Assembly: GCF_000332095.2 (NCBI RefSeq)
Contig: NZ_KI913949.1
Coordinates: 2,907,718 to 2,971,717 of the forward strand
DNA length: 64,000 nt
Source of the DNA: Leptolyngbya sp. PCC 6406
Lineage (GTDB): Bacteria; Cyanobacteriota; Cyanobacteriia; Phormidesmidales; Phormidesmidaceae
Reading direction: 5' to 3'
The notes under the pieces were generated by a model, which saw only the letters and a program-made list of their open reading frames with translations, did not search any database and was not told the origin of the DNA. Below are positions 1,495 through 10,582 of this stretch, one piece after another. How positions within the stretch are numbered: position 1 is the stretch's first letter; each line of letters begins with the position of its first letter. Position numbers and translations under genes: made by a program.

Positions 1495-3213
1495 TCAAGG
1501 CGATCCTTCTTCACTGTCAGTTGGACCTTGTCCACTATAGTAAGTTTCTCGAAGAACTTTAAGCTCTGGCAAGTCAAATATCTCAGATGAATTACCTTGA
1601 AGAGCAAGATCCCGCGCGCTAACGAGCATAGGATCATTGACATTGACAGAAAATTCTTGCACAGCGTTAGGTTCAAATTGCCCCAAAATTAATAGGTAGT
1701 TTTTTTCTAATCTGCTTGGTGGTGCTGGCTCAGAGCGAAGAGCAGCTTTTACCGCTTCAATATGCTGACTTTGCTTGAAATCGTCGTATTTATGTCCTAA
1801 GTATAGCCAAGCTTCAGTTGCCATGAGTCTTTCGGCAAGACCGACTGAATCATCTATACTAGTTGCACATCCGACGATTGTTTCCCATTCCTTAGCTTCA
1901 ACGCTTGGTAGAAAGCGCATTGCTCTAATCGTAATTGCTTTAAGATACTCAACAGATTTATCAAGGTTCTGAAAGTGATCAAATAGCTCATTCAGCTCCT
2001 TTGTAAAGCCCTGACTAGCGATATTTTCAAGCACGTTTAGGGGATTACGAATAATCCAGAATGAACCTTTCAATACTTCCTCTATAGTAGAGATGATTTC
2101 ACGAAGACCTAGAAAAGACAATTTTGTAAGGGAAAATCTAATATATCTTTCGAGCCGCCTGTACTCAATGGGATTATCCTCATTCAGGCATTTTAATAAT
2201 TGCCAACTACTGAGAAATAGTTCAATCAAATCGCTTCGCAATGTATTAATATCTTCATTCCACTCGGAATTAACAGCTAAAAAATTAACGCCCCAAGCTG
2301 AAATTTTAGTAATCTCATCACTGATTGGTGGGTATGTAGCACCTAGCTCAGTAACATGTTCAATCACCTGCTTATACTTTTTTAATTCTCGTTCCCGCCT
2401 CTTCTGGTTAAACAAATATTTGAAGATTTTTCGGCTTAGATCAGTTGTTGAAATGTAGAGATCTAAACTTCTTAAGCATTTTTGATAACGCTCAATATTA
2501 TGCCACCATCTTTCATCATTCATATAGGCACTTTCAAGCAGATTCCGATGACTAGAATCCAACATCCAAAGTGGATCAGTGATTGCATTATATCTATCAT
2601 GCAACTGGTCTAAGATTTGATCTCGCTGAACCTCTTCTAAAAAGTCTGTTATATTGTATATTTTTGCGGTCTTTTTAGGATTTAGGTTTAGACCTAGTTT
2701 GCCTAATTCTTCAATTAGAACTTTTTCAACATCGTCTATATCATCAGGATTAGGTATGATGAAGATCATGTCATCTACGTAGCGATAAAATTTGAGTCCC
2801 CACTCATTACTAGCTCCAAATCTCTCATCAACAGTTTCCAGATATATGTTGGCGTAAAAACCTGAACCAATACTTCCTTGTGTTATACCTCTACCAACCT
2901 CATGGTCATTTAATTCTTTAAATAGTAAAAGCCGAATCAACCAGCGTATTCGATCACTGGTCGTCAGTTCCCTAGAAAGTAAATCACAGAGATTATCTTG
3001 AAATATCCTGGTATAGAATGACTCAATATCTCCTCTTAGAACAGCTCCGTCATGATACTTAATAGCACTTGCTTTCGCTTCATTTATATAAGAAGAATAT
3101 GTTTCAAAATAATATTCATAGAGATACTCAGTATCTTTTCTATCCTGTCTGGTAAGCCTATAAGCATAACTGCTACCTCTACCCCTGTCAAGGTGACCAT
3201 CTGTACTATTCAC
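1495..3213 (-). pseudogene. Reverse transcriptase, 3' part of a methyltransferase-RT gene split by an IS
   Basis: The 572 codons carry the catalytic half of a reverse transcriptase: motif A 'GDIESFYTRI' (D62), motif B 'GITQGSIGSGFYANIYLE' (residues 109-126), motif C 'FYRYVDDMIFI' (YVDD at 145-148) and motif D 'LNLNPKKTAKI'. About 380 further residues follow that look helical and that I do not recognise; defence-associated RTs often carry such a tail. The first 11 residues are encoded by the IS end (3181-3213). The genuine gene continues upstream at 4665: frame and target duplication match exactly, giving a 1018-aa protein. In restored numbering the motif A aspartate is D508 and the YVDD is 591-594. 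The IS separates RT motif 2 from the catalytic palm, so neither half should be an active RT unless the IS excises. Confidence 0.85.
3169..3180. repeat. Left copy of 12-bp target-site duplication
   Basis: ACTGCTACCTCT directly precedes the IS left end at 3181. The same 12 bases follow the right end at 4665-4676. This length suits the IS4 family. Confidence 0.92.
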
Positions 3214-4664
3214 CTGTAATCTGTCGGTAAATCCAAATCAGTTATCGAGGTCTCAATGCCTGTCATCAGAAGGTTGTAGGCCAATGATTAGCGCCATCTT
3301 TGAGCAATTTGTCGAAGCGAGTCCGGTAAGCGTAATGTTCCGCGTCTTGATGGAGCGCATTTTTAGGCCCGATAAACTCGACGAGTTATTTGAGAAAAAC
3401 GCCGAGAAGCAATACACCCGAGAGCTATTGTTTTCGAGTGTGGTGGGACTGATGAGTTTGGTGGTCAGCGGGATTCATCCTTCAGTGAACGCTGCCTACC
3501 AAAAGCTAGAGAAGCAAATTGGGGTGTCAAAACCAGCGCTGTACAGCAAGCTCAACGGCTTAGAGCCCAGAATTAGTCAGGCATTAGTGCGCTATGCCTA
3601 TCAGGAGTTGGCTCCTGTGGTCAAAGCGCTGGGGTTATCCCAGTCCCAGCGCTTACCGGGCTACTGCATCCGGATCGCCGACGGTAATCACTTGGGAACA
3701 ACCGAGCATCGGTTGAAGCCATTGCAGGCCACTCGCTCAGGCCCGCTACCCGGCCAATCGATTGCAGTGCTTGACCCAGAGCAGCATCTGGTAACGGATA
3801 TCTTTCTTTGTGAGGATGCCCATGCCCAAGAGCGTTCGTTGCTGCCCGAGATGCTCGAAACGGTGCAAGCCAATCAGGTGTGGATAGCAGACCGTAATTT
3901 CTGTGCCTGCGGTGCGCTGCTGGGTATTGCTCAACGTCAAGCCTACTTCGTTATTCGGGCTCATAAAAACACCCCTTGGGAAGCGCTAGAGCCCTTGAAG
4001 GCCGTTGGTTCATCGGCGACCGGAGAAGTCTTTGAGCAAGCGGTGAGAATCACTCATGAAGACCAGACTCTGACCCTGCGCCGGGTTGTCGTCAAGCTGG
4101 CTCAACCCACCCGGCATGGCGACAGCGAAGTCGCCCTGTTCACCAACTTACCCACCAGGGTCGCGACCGCCCCGTTGGTCACCGAACTCTACTTGGAGCG
4201 CTGGACCGTCGAGAAGATGTTTCAAGTGGTCACCGATGTCTTCTCCTGTGAGCTGAACACTTTGGGCTATCCCAGGGCCGCTTTATTCGTCTTTTGTATG
4301 GCCGTCGTTGCCTTCAATGTCTTATCCACCGTCAAAGCTGCCCTAAAAGCCGTTCACGGGGTTGGCAAAATTGAAGCAGGGTTGTCCAACTTCCATCTCG
4401 TTGAAGAAGTTCAGGGGACTTTTCGAGGCATGATGATTGCCCTCCCACCGTCCGAGTGGAGACCGTTCGGGAAGATGGCCATTGAACCCTTCGCCGAAAT
4501 CTTGAAAGAATGGGCGGCGCAAATCGACCTGAAACGGTTTAAGTCGTCGCCCAGAGGCCCCAAAAAAGCTGTCAAAAAGAACGAATATGACCCCAAACAT
4601 CCTCATGTTTCGACCGCTCGCCTCCTAAACCAAAAGGAGAACAAACGTTCACCTTAACAGGGGT
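3181..4664 (+). mobile_element. Complete IS4-family insertion sequence, 1484 bp
   Basis: The ends are imperfect inverted repeats: ACCCCTGTCAAGGTGACC at the left and ACCCCTGTTAAGGTGAAC at the right (read inward), 16 of 18 matching. Both are flanked by the 12-bp duplication ACTGCTACCTCT. One full-length transposase gene lies inside on the + strand, its stop only 7 bp from the right end. Nothing looks decayed, so insertion is probably recent. It sits in the minus-strand methyltransferase-RT gene. Confidence 0.92.
3284..4657 (+). CDS. IS4-family DDE transposase
   Basis: The 457-aa transposase starts at the ATG at 3284 and fills the element. The catalytic triad is visible: first Asp in 'IRIADGNHL' (D133), second Asp in 'WIADRNFC' (D203), and the family signature Y-x2-R-x3-E in 'LYLERWTVEKMFQ' (Y303, R306, E310). 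The C-terminus is basic and lysine-rich ('SSPRGPKKAVKKNEYDPKHPH'). It would catalyse cut-and-paste transposition of its own element. Full length with the motifs intact suggests it is functional. Confidence 0.93.
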   Translation: MISAIFEQFVEASPVSVMFRVLMERIFRPDKLDELFEKNAEKQYTRELLFSSVVGLMSLVVSGIHPSVNAAYQKLEKQIGVSKPALYSKLNGLEPRISQALVRYAYQELAPVVKALGLSQSQRLPGYCIRIADGNHLGTTEHRLKPLQATRSGPLPGQSIAVLDPEQHLVTDIFLCEDAHAQERSLLPEMLETVQANQVWIADRNFCACGALLGIAQRQAYFVIRAHKNTPWEALEPLKAVGSSATGEVFEQAVRITHEDQTLTLRRVVVKLAQPTRHGDSEVALFTNLPTRVATAPLVTELYLERWTVEKMFQVVTDVFSCELNTLGYPRAALFVFCMAVVAFNVLSTVKAALKAVHGVGKIEAGLSNFHLVEEVQGTFRGMMIALPPSEWRPFGKMAIEPFAEILKEWAAQIDLKRFKSSPRGPKKAVKKNEYDPKHPHVSTARLLNQKENKRSP

Positions 4665-6047
4665 ACTGCTACCTCTTAACTGAGATACCTTGTTCCCTAG
4701 CCTCTGAACAATGGCAACAGATAAAATTTCTTCCTCAATTCGAGACAATCCTCTTGGGCGGGTAACATTTACATTCTTAGGAAATTTATACGCTATTTGT
4801 TCTTCTATCCTTGCGACATCATCAGCGTAAGCGCTTAACTGTTCTTGAAGATCTTGAAGCTTTGCATTTAGCTCTACTTCGAATAGACGTAATTCTGTTT
4901 CATCACAAAGGGATTCTCTTAAAAGATTATTCCTTGCTCTCGCCCAAGCTAATCTCAGATTATCAAGACTGATAACCTCATTCCATTCTTGATCTTCTTT
5001 TCTGTCAGCGCTATACACTGTCTGGAAATCAACATAGAATTCTGTATTGTATTCCACAACATTTTTTTGATCTCTCCAATAACAGTTGGGAGGATTTTCA
5101 AAGTACACAGTATGATTGCCTGAATTAATCTGATTAATAGTATGTCGATTGCCTACAATCTGCTGTAGGGTATTAGCCATTTCTTTAATTCTCTCTTCTA
5201 AAGTAACTTCACTATTTGTGCCTTCTTGCACTTGCTTTTCCATATTCTTGGTTCCAATTGTCACAATGTGCATGACATCAACTGGGACACTTTCTATCAA
5301 TTGTTTATATGCTTGAGCTTCAGCAGTACCAAGTCCTACATCATCCTCTGTTGTGGACTCATCAACATCGACACCTAAAGCTCTTAGCTCTTCTAAGTTT
5401 GCTTGACAGCTTCTATAAATTTGGCTGAACGGAGAAATAACATTAAGCTGCATTACTAAAACATTAGATAGGCATGGAATTTGAGATGATAAAAGTTCAT
5501 TTTTAAGATATCTATTAATGGGATTTATAGCATTTGGAAACCCCTCGATTACATGTTTGAAGTTAAGGTTAACTAGGTTCGCAGTTGATGACTTAAGATT
5601 TCCCATTGTCTGATTGTAAAGTCCAATAGCACGATGGCTTGGATCAACACCAATGAATAGAATATTTACCTCATTTGTCAGTTTCCCCTGCTCTTTTAAG
5701 CGAATAACTATCTCCAAAAAAGCAGCGGAAGCGGCACCAGCTCCACAACCCATATCCAAAATACAAACCTTTTGCCGATGTCTCAGCCAAGTTGCGATCT
5801 GTTCTTCTCCAATGACAGAATCTAGCGTGTAGGCTGCCTTGAAGTAATGCGCTGGAAAGAGAGCATAATATTGGAAAGCAATGTGTTTCCAATCAGTTTC
5901 TTGAAGCTTCCGTTTTAGGTTGCTGTAGGTCAAACTTTTGTAACCATTAGCATCTTGAACACTTGTCTCAATCCACTGGTGTACAGAAGTATACGCATTT
6001 ACAATAAGAGGATGAAAGCAGCGGTATGTAGGTTGTGTGTCGCTCAC
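4572..6047 (-). pseudogene. Methyltransferase-like domain plus RT N-terminus, 5' part of the IS-split gene
   Basis: The native part is residues 1-461 (6047 to 4665); the remaining 30 codons are IS sequence and end at 4572. A Rossmann SAM-binding motif is clear: 'VCILDMGCGAGAASAAF' (about 94-110), followed by an acidic strand end 'ILFIGVDPSHRA'. The preceding 'YALFPAHYFKAAYTLDSVI' resembles the lead-in of Rsm22-like rRNA methyltransferases. Residues 370-420 look coiled-coil. Residues 436-461 ('IEEEILSVAIVQRLGNKVSQ' onward) fit RT motif 2 and continue in frame into the 3' part. The ATG at 6047 overlaps the helicase stop by 4 bases (ATGA), implying translational coupling. The methylation target is unknown and the methyltransferase call is by motif only. 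Confidence 0.8.
4665..4676. repeat. Right copy of 12-bp target-site duplication
   Basis: ACTGCTACCTCT, identical to 3169-3180. On the minus strand it encodes R-G-S-S in both halves of the broken gene, in the same frame. Confidence 0.92.
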
Positions 6048-8497
6048 TGAATGTACTCCTCAGGTATTTCACGAATAAATTGGCTGCGAGATTTTGAGTA
6101 GTCCCTGAAATCTCTTGAGTAGGCAGATATAAACAATCTTTTCTTTGCTCTCGTCATTGCAACATAAAACAACCGCTTTTCTTCTTCTAACTTATTGTCA
6201 CGAACACTAAAAAAGCTAGGGAATTCATCCTCTGTAGCACCTGCAATAAAAATACTGTCAAACTCTAGCCCCTTGGATTGATGGACTGTAACGATAGAAA
6301 CTTGATTATTATCCTGAGAAACTTGGTCTAAGCTCTTGGCAAGAGCAGTGAATTCAAGGATACCGCGTAAAGCAGTATCGGGATGTAAAGCTAGGTCATC
6401 TCGTTTTTGAAAAAGACGTACAAGATGCCGGAGATTTTGCAGACGTTTCTCATCTGCTTGGTAATAACTATATAGTCCAGATTCTGCTAACAACTTATCT
6501 AATAGATCTGAGGGGCGTAGTGTTTGGCTAGCATCGCGCCAATTATCCATCTGCTCAGCGAGTATTTCAAACTCATCTCCATAGCGATACACTAGAGCTT
6601 TACGGTAGTCGACTCTACGCTCAACTGACGGTACTAAAACCTCTAACAAATCAATTGTGGTTCTCACATCATCCATTGCCTTATGGCTAGGCAGATGGAC
6701 AAGATTTAGATGCTCTGCTAATACTTCCAAGCTGTAACGATCAGAGTCAATAAACCGATTTGCTAGTTCTAACGTGTCTTCCCATTGCAGCTTTGGAACA
6801 GTAATACCAACTTTTTGGGCTTGGGCAGTCACCATTTTGATGTCAAAGCCCACATTATGACCGACTAGAATTGAATTTTCGGCAAACTCAAAGAACTCAT
6901 TAAACACATCTTTCGCAGCTCGACCATGTTTTGACAGAAATAGATCACTATGTCCATGTATCCTTTCTGAGTCGCCAACACTAACTGTATTTGCAATATA
7001 AGCATGAAATTCAGCCTGTGATTCCCCTTCAATCAAGCGAACTGCCGCAATCTCAACAACTTCATCTTGACTAACTGAGAACCCTGTTGTCTCCACATCA
7101 AAGACTGTGACGACTCCAGATGAGTAAGCCCTTAATATTTCGCTGAAGGGATCTCCATCAGTAAAAGTTTTGCTTGATACCATGTCTATCAAACTAAATC
7201 CGCAATTTTTCCCTTCCTCACTTACAGTCTTAATCGTCACATCACCAATTCCACGACTCGGACGAAGCAACATCCGACGCATGGCACCAGCATCAAAAGG
7301 ATTGAGAATAAGATGCAGATAAGCAAGTGCATCTTTTACTTCCTGACGCATGAAAAATTGGAATCGCTCAACTGTGATGCAAGGAATATCTATACGCTCC
7401 AATACTTGACTCACTACTTCTGTGCGCCTATGGCTGCGAGCAAGAATTGCCACTCGGCTGTAATCTAACTTTTCTTGATTGCTGGCCAGATGCTGGATTT
7501 GCTTGCCAATCCACTCTGCTTCCGCCCGCTCATTACTTGCCGAATAGATTTGAATCAACTCACCCACATCACACCCAGGTGCAGGTGTGATTTTTGTTTG
7601 TCGATGTTCAAATGAATCTGCAAACCCAGAAGCCGCATTTAGAAGAGTTTTTGTTGCTCGATAGTTCCAGGTCAAAGAATACGTTGCAGGGTTGAAATCA
7701 ACATTAAATTGCTTAATGACTTCATCTGGTTCAGAACCTCTCCACTCATAAATAGTCTGATCCAGATCTCCTATCATTGCCAGGTTGCCACTGTTAGCAG
7801 CTAAATGCTTAACAATGCCATATTCCGACAGATGAGTGTCCTGGACTTCATCGACTTGAACAAAATCAAACTTATCTGCCCAACGTTGGCTTATTTCCGA
7901 TTCATGCTGTAGCATGACCCGAAGATAAAACATGAGGTCGGCAAAATCTAAAGCATGACGCTTTTGAAGGATAGCTTGATATTGAGCGGCACATTGAGCG
8001 TTTTTACTGCCTAATGGCGCATATAGATTTTCGGCTAGATTATTCGGAGATAACTGAGAATCTTTAGCTTTAACTTTACAGTTTGCTAAGTTGAAGAATA
8101 ATTGTTGGGCATCACGATCATTCGATAAATTAAAAACTTCTTTGACCAGTTCAATCGAATCGGCATCGTCATAAATCACAAAGTCTGTGGGCAACCCAAA
8201 CTGACGTGCTTCAATCCGTAGGATTGAAGCACATAAACCATGAAAGGTATTAATCGTCAGATATTGCAATTGCTCCGGGCAGTACTTCGATAACCGCTCT
8301 CCCATTTCTCTGGCGGCTCGATTTGTAAACGTTAGACAGAGAATTCGCCTAGGAGAGATGCCCTTATGAATCGCATGTAGAACTCGCTCCGCTAGTACAC
8401 GAGTCTTGCCTGTCCCAACCGGAGCAAGTACTAAAATTGCACCTTCTACGTGGCTAGCGATCGCGCTTTGCTCAGGGTTAAGCTCGTGACTAAGCAT
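6044..8497 (-). CDS. UvrD/Rep-type helicase with embedded DEDDh exonuclease
   Basis: An 817-aa SF1A helicase. Walker A is 'APVGTGKT' (25-32), motif Ia 'LTFTNRAAREM', motif II 'VDEVQD' (215-220), motif III 'GDLDQTIYEWRG' (243-254), motif V 'TVHQSKGLEFDSI' (737-749) and motif VI 'LFYVAMTRAKKRL' (776-788). Between motifs IV and V sits a complete DnaQ-like 3'-5' exonuclease (about 462-625): 'VFDVETTGF' (D467, E469), 'GHNVGFDI' (D552) and 'HKAMDD' (H605, D610). The protein could couple unwinding of DNA or an RNA-DNA hybrid to 3' trimming. It heads the operon with the methyltransferase-RT gene (4-base overlap) and appears intact although its partner is broken. A role in phage or plasmid defence is inferred from the context. 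Confidence 0.9.
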   Translation of the reverse strand: MLSHELNPEQSAIASHVEGAILVLAPVGTGKTRVLAERVLHAIHKGISPRRILCLTFTNRAAREMGERLSKYCPEQLQYLTINTFHGLCASILRIEARQFGLPTDFVIYDDADSIELVKEVFNLSNDRDAQQLFFNLANCKVKAKDSQLSPNNLAENLYAPLGSKNAQCAAQYQAILQKRHALDFADLMFYLRVMLQHESEISQRWADKFDFVQVDEVQDTHLSEYGIVKHLAANSGNLAMIGDLDQTIYEWRGSEPDEVIKQFNVDFNPATYSLTWNYRATKTLLNAASGFADSFEHRQTKITPAPGCDVGELIQIYSASNERAEAEWIGKQIQHLASNQEKLDYSRVAILARSHRRTEVVSQVLERIDIPCITVERFQFFMRQEVKDALAYLHLILNPFDAGAMRRMLLRPSRGIGDVTIKTVSEEGKNCGFSLIDMVSSKTFTDGDPFSEILRAYSSGVVTVFDVETTGFSVSQDEVVEIAAVRLIEGESQAEFHAYIANTVSVGDSERIHGHSDLFLSKHGRAAKDVFNEFFEFAENSILVGHNVGFDIKMVTAQAQKVGITVPKLQWEDTLELANRFIDSDRYSLEVLAEHLNLVHLPSHKAMDDVRTTIDLLEVLVPSVERRVDYRKALVYRYGDEFEILAEQMDNWRDASQTLRPSDLLDKLLAESGLYSYYQADEKRLQNLRHLVRLFQKRDDLALHPDTALRGILEFTALAKSLDQVSQDNNQVSIVTVHQSKGLEFDSIFIAGATEDEFPSFFSVRDNKLEEEKRLFYVAMTRAKKRLFISAYSRDFRDYSKSRSQFIREIPEEYIQ

Positions 8498-8610
8498 AAA
8501 GACTGGAAGCTTTAGGAGACAATCTTAGCTTTTGCCACTCGGCAATACTCTCAGTAACATCAAAAAATTCATGAACTTTACTGTTGCTCCTATAACTAAG
8601 CCCTAGGGGA

Positions 8611-8734
8611 TATGGGCAGATCACAGTCTGTATAAGCATCCGGATGGATGGTTTAGGCAGGTTATGGTCTGCCTATGCCTCTACTGGGGCGATATAGGCG
8701 GATCATGATCTGTCTAAATACCCAAATTAGGCAG
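8611..8734. promoter_or_regulatory. Three palindromes at 41-bp period upstream of the helicase operon
   Basis: Three related dyads start at 8617 (CAGATCACAGTCTG), 8658 (CAGGTTATGGTCTG) and 8699 (CGGATCATGATCTG), spaced exactly 41 and 41 bp. Each is extended by (T)AGGC on the left and a C-T-A-rich right side. A fourth half-site (TTAGGCAGAT) is at 8727-8736. The spacers between them are unlike each other. They lie 114-226 bp upstream of the helicase start. Operator array or structured RNA are both possible. Confidence 0.5.
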
Positions 8735-8736
8735 AT

Positions 8737-8963
8737 AGCTTCATGAACACGACTTGGAAGGTTATGGCTTGAGACGAGCTGAAAAGCCTGCTACGTCGTT
8801 GTCTTCATACAGACACCCAGTTCCCTGAGGGGAGTCGTTGGCTTTGCTGCCCGAGGGGCTAGGGAACGGCAAGAACCTGGTGGTGTGGCTGGCTTCGACT
8901 CCGCTCAGCCAGCAGTCAATGGGCTCGGTTTTCTGTAACCTTCCAAGTTGTGTCATGAAAGCT
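8737..8963. repeat. MITE-like element, 227 bp, about 27-bp imperfect terminal inverted repeats
   Basis: The left end (8737-8763) and right end (8937-8963) are imperfect inverted copies sharing ...CGACTTGGAAGGTT / AACCTTCCAAGTTG..., with a few mismatches and one shifted base. The interior contains a smaller hairpin (CTGGCTTCGACTCCGCTCAG..., about 8888-8914). No transposase gene fits inside. The palindromic array at 8611 abuts its left end. Confidence 0.55.
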
Positions 8964-8983
8964 TTATAGACGAACGTAGACTA

Positions 8984-9031
8984 AGAAAAAATGATGAGTT
9001 TCGTAGGAGTTGGGCAGTGCCCAACTCCTAC
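8984..9031 (-). terminator. Candidate terminator of trpE
   Basis: A perfect 13-bp stem (9003-9015 with 9019-9031, loop AGT) lies 13 bp after the trpE stop. On the minus strand a run of six T follows at 8991-8986, somewhat far from the stem. It may instead be a dispersed palindrome of the GTTGGGCAxTGCCCAAC kind. Confidence 0.45.
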
Positions 9032-9043
9032 CTATACAACTCT

Positions 9044-10582
9044 TCAGGGTTGCCGTAGACAGCGGATCGCCTCCAACATGCCTCGGGCCTTGTTCAGAGT
9101 TTCCTGGAACTCGCTCTCAGGCACCGAATCCGCCACCAAGCCCGCTCCCGCCTGAACACTGATCTGCCACTGGTCAGGCCCCTGAGCCTGGGCAAACATT
9201 GTCCGGATCGTGATGGCGGTATTGAGCTGCCCCTCAAAGTCGTAGTAGCCGTAGACTCCAGAGTATGGCCCCCGGCGATCGGGCTCCAGAGCATTGATGA
9301 TCTGCATGGCGCGAATTTTGGGAGCCCCACTGACGGTACCCGCTGGGAAGCAAGCTTTCAGTAGATCCCAGGCGGTTTTCTCCGGGGCGAGGTGGCCCAC
9401 CACGTTGCTGACGATGTGCATAACGTGGGAATAGCGCTCGATCACCATCAGTTCGTCCACCCGCACCGTACCACTGGCGCAGACCCGACCCAGATCATTG
9501 CGGCCTAGGTCCACCAGCATGACGTGCTCGGCAATTTCCTTGGGGTCTTGGAGCAAATCCTGGGCTAGGGCTTCATCAGCGGCGGGGGTCTGACCTCGGG
9601 GCCGCGTCCCGGCAATGGGGCGCACAGTGGCCACCATGGGGGCTCCCGGCTCATCGCTGTACTCCGCCTTCACCATTACCTCCGGGCTGGAGCCAATCAT
9701 CTGCCAGTCTCGGAAGTGGAAGTAGGCCATGTAGGGGGAGGGGTTCACCAGCCGCAGGGAACGGTACAGGTTAAAAGGGTTGCCTTGGTAGGGCGTGGTG
9801 AGGCGCTGGGAGACCACGACCTGGAAGATATCTCCGGCGCGGATGTGGTCTTTGGCGGTGGTGACAGCTTGGCAGAAGTCTGCCTGGGTGCGGTTACTGC
9901 GATAGTTCAGGGGGGGGGCGGCGTTTTCCTCTGGGGGTTGCCAGCCGACAAGAGGGGCGAGTCCTTCCAGGGGCTGGGAAAGTTTATGGACTAGGGTTTG
10001 AATGCGATCGCAGGCTTGCTGATAAGCCCGTGTCACCGTCTGCCCCGGAGCCCGCAGATCAGCGTAGGCAATGATCCAAATTTTGCGTTTCACCTGATCA
10101 AAGATCAGGAGATTATCCACCTGCATCCAGAGACCATCGGGAAGATCAGTGTCGGTGCGATCGTGGATGGGGACCGTCGGCTCAATCCACTGAATCAGCT
10201 CATAGCCCCAGAAGCCAAACAGGCCACCGATGCCGGGGGGTAACTGGGGCAGTTTCACAGGCTGGTAGGGAGCAAGGCACTGGGGCAGAATCTCAAAGGG
10301 ATTGCCCTCATAGGTCTTGGCGGTGCCATCCCGATAGGTTTGGGTGGTCACAGCCCCCCGCGTTTCCAGTACCCACAGGGGATCGCACCCCAGCAGACTA
10401 TAGCGCCCCAGGTTTTCTCCACCTTCTACCGACTCCAGCAGAAAGCTGTAGGGTTGCCCGTTACAGACCTTGTGCCACGCGGAAACAGGGGTGTCGAGGT
10501 CGGCGGCTAGCTCTTGGTACACCGGAACAAAGTTGCCCTGAGTAGCGAGATGGATGAATTGGTCAAGGGAGGGAGAAACCAT
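9044..10582 (-). CDS. trpE: Anthranilate synthase component I
   Basis: 512 aa, the normal length. TrpE makes anthranilate from chorismate, using ammonia delivered by the TrpG glutaminase, the first step of tryptophan synthesis in the cytosol. The N-terminal region contains the 'LLES' element that binds the feedback inhibitor tryptophan ('YSFLLESVEGGENLGRYS'). The C-terminal chorismate-binding domain has 'PSPYMAYFHF', 'PIAGTRPRG', 'LVDLGRNDLGRV' and 'FPAGTVSGAPKIRAM'. PIAGT rather than PIKGT favours TrpE over PabB. trpG is not adjacent. It follows psaD on the same strand but a strong terminator separates them. Confidence 0.96.
   Translation of the reverse strand: MVSPSLDQFIHLATQGNFVPVYQELAADLDTPVSAWHKVCNGQPYSFLLESVEGGENLGRYSLLGCDPLWVLETRGAVTTQTYRDGTAKTYEGNPFEILPQCLAPYQPVKLPQLPPGIGGLFGFWGYELIQWIEPTVPIHDRTDTDLPDGLWMQVDNLLIFDQVKRKIWIIAYADLRAPGQTVTRAYQQACDRIQTLVHKLSQPLEGLAPLVGWQPPEENAAPPLNYRSNRTQADFCQAVTTAKDHIRAGDIFQVVVSQRLTTPYQGNPFNLYRSLRLVNPSPYMAYFHFRDWQMIGSSPEVMVKAEYSDEPGAPMVATVRPIAGTRPRGQTPAADEALAQDLLQDPKEIAEHVMLVDLGRNDLGRVCASGTVRVDELMVIERYSHVMHIVSNVVGHLAPEKTAWDLLKACFPAGTVSGAPKIRAMQIINALEPDRRGPYSGVYGYYDFEGQLNTAITIRTMFAQAQGPDQWQISVQAGAGLVADSVPESEFQETLNKARGMLEAIRCLRQP

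Follow-up and report, generated by a model that had tools for sequence, protein, structure and literature searches.

Class 1 reverse transcriptases (RTs) possess an alphaRep domain and carry out untemplated, protein-primed synthesis, and Class 2 DRTs require ncRNAs supplied in cis (PMC13174585). Two tyrosines in the C-terminal tail of DRT9 serve as its priming residues, and the E. coli 3'-5' exonuclease ExoI is required to tolerate DRT9 and UG17, which are toxic without ExoI (PMC12483538). PADLOC-DB (2023) holds a further DRT, which pairs RT_UG35 (PDLC03774, 938 positions) with a helicase, RTasHel; no experimental study of UG35 was found in a literature search. We analysed a stretch of 64,000 nucleotides from Leptolyngbya sp. 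PCC 6406 (hereafter, the window) and compared its RT locus with these systems. The window carries a new, presently inactivated member of a known family. Some novelty lies in the anatomy of the helicase and of the conserved tail, which was unreported and emerged from the comparison of loci.

Interruption of the RT gene by an insertion sequence

The features of the locus are summarized in Table 1. As the initial annotation had claimed, one minus-strand gene is split by an insertion sequence (IS), which is flanked by a 12-bp duplication. The IS ends in 16-bp, near-identical, inverted sequences, ACCCCTGTCAAGGTGA and ACCCCTGTTAAGGTGA. The inverted ends, a duplication within the 10–13 bp range and an IS4 transposase, whose NF033592 score is right at the cut-off of 115 bits, place the element in the IS4 family. 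The genome contains four full copies that are 100% identical and one decayed copy, and duplications of 11–13 bp flank the remaining copies. The identity of the four copies and the duplications at the others indicate that the insertion is recent.

Removal of the IS and one duplication joins codon 461 to codon 16 of the downstream part and gives a protein of 1018 residues with no stop, exactly as annotated. This in-frame restoration is a mechanical consequence of any target-duplicating insertion and is by itself no evidence for a fusion; the weight falls on intact homologues, which are described below. The open reading frame of the 5' half (4572–6047) runs through the duplication into the IS, and that of the 3' half (1495–3213) begins in the IS end. 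Both halves are fully open and the latter has a GTG start within the IS at 3213, so that the two could in principle be expressed separately and reassemble into a functional two-protein enzyme. We regard this as highly improbable: none of the homologues is naturally split at this point, the break falls within the RT domain, ahead of motif A, and after a recent insertion, which the identical IS copies imply, open frames are expected without any function. RT motifs A–D of the window lie on a fragment that lacks a native start, so the defence is most likely off; the helicase is intact.

Table 1. Coordinates of the features of the UG35 locus in the window.
Feature	Position	Strand	Basis
3' part of UG35 gene: RT motifs A–D and C-terminal alpha-solenoid	1495..3168	-	RT_UG35 423–935, E 8e-201; RVT_1 E 9e-14
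C-terminal alpha-solenoid region (HEAT-like, alphaRep-like)	1534..2568	-	model of a relative; Foldseek; HEAT_2 match in L018
Conserved tail Tyr-Tyr, candidate priming site (putative)	1537..1542	-	all 9 members having the tail
RT catalytic motif C, YVDD	2770..2781	-	sequence; YxDD in all members
Target-site duplication copy 1, ACTGCTACCTCT	3169..3180	.	12 bp
IS4-family insertion sequence	3181..4664	+	1484 bp; four identical full copies in the genome
IS4-family DDE transposase	3284..4657	+	PF01609 E 2e-10; NF033592 115.3 bits
Target-site duplication copy 2, ACTGCTACCTCT	4665..4676	.	12 bp
5' part of UG35 gene (own residues 1–457)	4677..6047	-	RT_UG35 profile positions 2–423, E 1.3e-182
Methyltransferase-like domain; motif I LDMGCGAGAA, acidic end of strand 2 GVD	5013..5777	-	weak generic methyltransferase matches
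UvrD-type helicase with DEDDh exonuclease inserted in UvrD_C	6044..8497	-	PADLOC RTasHel (PDLC03802) E 0, full length

Family assignment and distribution

The fusion had been suggested to be a new RT class. This does not hold, since RT_UG35 spans the joined protein end to end: the two halves meet at profile position 423 and together reach from 2 to 935 of 938, and the intact relatives match 2–936. Both PADLOC models span the window proteins at full length, the RT gene being the one broken by the IS. Because both halves match RT_UG35 and the helicase matches RTasHel, fusion and helicase are already catalogued as a DRT. The second-best model for both halves was RT_UG25 (PDLC03763), which implies that N-terminal fusions of this kind are already present in two catalogued groups. 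RT_UG25 covers positions 6–836 of 870 in locus L018, likewise indicating a three-part layout, but its scores are far lower than those of RT_UG35 (102 vs 668 bits). UG25 was also considered as a separate group in the same set of genomes; its matches were the UG35 genes themselves and other RTs in genomes G072 and G280. No Pfam match to a nitrilase or phosphohydrolase domain, the mark of Class 3 UG RTs, was observed in any member.

The PADLOC RT_UG35 model was searched against 386 cyanobacterial genomes and identified 7 carriers, including the genome of the window; the other six (G360, G262, G368, G064, G382, and G187) provide loci L013–L018. Two further loci, L003 (Westiellopsis prolifica) and L004 (unicellular cyanobacterium SU2), came from a scan of genome contigs, for a total of nine. 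In L013–L018 the fusion occupies a single frame of 1016–1160 residues, with 57–59% identity to the joined protein in L013 and L014, 35–38% in L015–L017, and 27% in L018. The fusion of a methyltransferase-like domain and an RT in one gene is therefore genuine, since six other cyanobacterial genomes carry it uninterrupted, and the homologues are not always two separate proteins. An intact catalytic RT in one protein is found in L013–L018 and, owing to the IS, not in the window.

The sporadic distribution (7 of 386 genomes) is as expected of defence genes. The gene-order search around the window revealed no other UG35 carrier among 65 genomes, and no relatives were found on plasmids, phages, or viral contigs. 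L015–L017 differ from the PADLOC pair in two respects: their gene order is reversed, and the RT carries an additional N-terminus of about 130 residues with a ribbon-helix-helix domain (L015:6307-6700, L016:12100-12487, and L017:6222-6610), which lies outside the PADLOC model and gave a FitA-like match in L015 (E 6e-7). The fused domain is possibly a built-in autoregulator.

The N-terminal methyltransferase-like domain

SAM-binding motif I was found where it had been annotated. D98, G100, and G104 of this motif and D135 at strand 2 are invariant in all eight members compared. We used the AlphaFold model of an intact relative, P0002 (pLDDT 72.8), which is 57–58% identical to the two window halves. 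In this model a Rossmann-type methyltransferase-like domain is followed by the RT and then by helices from about residue 660 to 1000. Strands and helices alternate from 94 to 344 in the first domain, which ends in two long strands and has a Rossmann-type strand order. Motif I and the acidic residue after strand 2 thus appear, by sequence and model together, on a Rossmann-type sheet, as in class I SAM methyltransferases, and the label methyltransferase-like is justified to that extent. The narrower designation Rsm22-like had to be dropped because no Rsm22 match was obtained at E up to 1 in eight members; the best weak matches were AprA-MT2-like and generic methyltransferase models. All Pfam scores were below the curated family cut-offs, the best being 22.1 against 27 bits for Methyltransf_36.

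The domain would bind SAM and either modify a substrate or sense the nucleotide or SAM state. A substantial possibility, which we lean slightly against, is that it is a catalytically dead methyltransferase fold serving as a scaffold or ligand sensor. L015–L017 have lost the second motif I glycine (GCALGA, GCVMGA, and GCAMGA), an NPPY-type motif IV is absent from the domain, and the Pfam scores are low as given above; the invariance of the motif I Asp, its first and third Gly, and the strand-2 Asp argues the other way. A dead fold would be compatible with the mechanism that we favour below.

The RT domain, alpha-solenoid, and templating

RT motifs A (DIESFY), B (QGS), and C (YVDD) lie as originally placed, and the approximately 380 helical residues that had been noted after them correspond, in the model of the intact relative, to an alpha-solenoid like that of the Abi RTs. 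Foldseek aligned the P0002 model with group II and G2L4 RTs over about 300–490 columns and with AbiA, AbiK, Abi-P2, DRT4, UG15, and DRT6 over about 420–735 columns. The latter alignments are long enough to comprise both the RT and the C-terminal helical domain. An alphaRep (HEAT-like) domain after the RT, which is the mark of Class 1, is thereby predicted with moderate confidence, the query TM-scores for the likeness to AbiK being low (0.20–0.26) on a model of pLDDT 73. The solved Abi, DRT4, and DRT6 chains have about 480–600 residues, whereas UG35 adds the methyltransferase-like domain of about 350 residues, known here from sequence and model.

The two tail tyrosines (Table 1) resemble those of DRT9, and by this analogy the Tyr-Tyr pair is the best candidate for the priming site. 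DRT9 uses an ncRNA template, whereas none was found for UG35. Pairwise BLASTN of nine loci detected no conserved flanking non-coding DNA beyond the coding ends of the operon: similarity between loci does not extend past the start and stop codons, also for loci whose coding DNA is 75–83% identical. Moreover, an Rfam search at the UG35 operons gave no match. These results indicate that a co-encoded ncRNA is unlikely, and together with the Class-1-like fold they favour untemplated, protein-primed synthesis. It is improbable that the RT is instead RNA-templated in the manner of Class 2 DRTs, which need ncRNAs in cis (PMC13174585), with an ncRNA that diverges fast or lies inside the coding sequence. 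The flank comparison covers nine loci by pairwise BLASTN, which leaves such a reading some room; the abrupt end of similarity, the negative Rfam search, and fold matches to Abi RTs, DRT4, DRT6, and UG15 over the RT and helical domain all argue against it.

The helicase-exonuclease and its partners

The helicase that had been named as the partner of the RT gene is a full-length RTasHel adjoining it, and the two genes share 4 bp where the RT gene begins. UvrD_C (273–794, Pfam coordinates) is interrupted by an RNase_T/DEDDh exonuclease (464–618), and the DEDDh residues and Walker motifs are conserved in 7 helicases. The RT gene and RTasHel are adjacent in 8 of the 9 loci, L004 retaining a helicase fragment only. 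The initial annotation asked whether the helicase is always upstream; it is upstream in the clade of the window, downstream in L015–L017, and absent beside L018, the only locus in which the RT occurs without RTasHel. L018 also has a DEDD/RNase H-like exonuclease gene (L018:7960-8778; RNase_H_2 E 7.5e-4, below the cut-off) about 560 bp upstream of its UG35 gene, with an opposite-strand gene between them.

The RT gene is broken in three loci. In L003 (L003:6135-7909), the gene is interrupted near codon 93 by an insertion bounded by inverted ends, GGGAGCATCCCAATTTTGCAAA, and accompanied by an 8-bp repeat, ACAAAAAG; its sequence is masked in part, so no type was assigned. In L004 (L004:7029-10680), the RT has one in-frame stop and the helicase is reduced to its C-terminal part beside RND efflux genes. 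Where insertions broke the RT, in the window and in L003, the helicase has kept its full length; it is truncated only in L004. Three independent breakages among nine loci suggest a costly RT. Loss of the RT with retention of the helicase, the reverse being seen only in the distant L018, fits a role of the helicase as a silencer in these few loci.

RTasHel at E≤1e-150 was present in 11 of the 386 genomes; five of these lack UG35, and the other six are all but one of the seven UG35 carriers. The helicase occurs without the RT in L046, L047, L048, and L050, and no partner was recognised in L048 and L050. In L046 and L047 (genomes G072 and G127), it occupies a chromosomal slot matching that of L016, and the segment of L016 that contains the RT gene (5847–10009, reverse strand) is replaced by two genes, one for a HindVP endonuclease (PF09519, E 1e-156) and one for a C5 DNA methyltransferase. 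The two flanks of this exchange share 87% and 90% identity, and its right border coincides with the helicase start codon. The endonuclease, methyltransferase, and RTasHel genes stand in a row (L046:5617-10205 and L047:5802-10435). Furthermore, the helicases of L046–L048 nest within the RT-associated helicases in the tree. The presence of the helicase behind the HindVP pair means that its role is not specific to the RT product, and the association with restriction-modification genes speaks for a broader function in processing DNA ends.

This association is also the main support for a different assignment of roles, in which the helicase-exonuclease is the effector and the RT fusion acts as a sensor of infection that recruits or licenses UvrD-DEDDh to degrade phage DNA. 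Digestion of DNA cut by the endonuclease would be a natural role for the helicase in L046 and L047, and the helicase strongly matches GajB profiles. Gabija (GajA/GajB), which consists of a nuclease and a UvrD helicase, has a UvrD-type helicase partner in common with UG35; the UG35 helicase, however, bears its own DEDDh exonuclease. We consider the effector role unlikely, because helicases remain intact next to broken RTs and also where they stand alone, which would be odd for a licensed toxic effector. In addition, RTasHel outscores every GajB model, and inspection of the open reading frames of the window region and loci L013–L018 revealed no OLD-like (GajA) nuclease gene.

Proposed mode of action

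We tentatively favour, as having close to an even chance, the view that the locus is an IS-inactivated UG35 defence system of a helicase-exonuclease and an RT fusion, in which the RT would make protein-primed, untemplated DNA and the helicase-exonuclease would restrain the product. Intact UG35 would synthesize DNA without an RNA template, like AbiK and other Class 1 RTs, and the DNA would be primed on a residue of the protein itself, the probable site being one of the two tyrosines conserved in the tail. Phage infection would yield this DNA, bound or free, as a product that is costly, arrests growth, or acts as a signal. The UvrD-DEDDh enzyme would unwind DNA and trim its 3' ends, and would thereby hold down the amount of RT product until a phage upsets this state. 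The need for an exonuclease in UG35 is proposed by analogy with DRT9: as DRT9 and UG17 are toxic without ExoI, the simplest reading of a dedicated helicase-exonuclease is that it silences or processes what the RT makes. The intact UG35 without RTasHel in L018 stands against this explanation.

A wider proposal, which we hold to be doubtful, is that the protein-bound DNA of UG35 is checked by the helicase-exonuclease of the same operon and that this helicase is a portable DNA-end-processing module, partnered by either an RT or a restriction-modification pair. If the proposed restraint is true, the helicase would be the built-in counterpart of the host ExoI for DRT9. UG35 lends itself to a simple genetic experiment on whether an RT-based immune system can encode a silencer of its own. 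Its anatomy is open to tests: the N-terminal methyltransferase-like domain on a Class-1-like RT, the conserved tail Tyr-Tyr, the helicase with a built-in 3'-5' exonuclease, and the natural swap that puts a HindVP restriction-modification pair in the place of the RT before the helicase.

Genes adjoining the operon

By inspection, several transposase-like genes were observed in the 5 kb past the left end of the window (L019:6333-10871), which indicates that the RT operon lies in an IS-rich stretch. Within the window, a VapC-type toxin gene with a PIN domain (729–1359; NF047863 187.6 bits, cut-off 140) adjoins the RT gene and is directly preceded by a small antitoxin-like frame.
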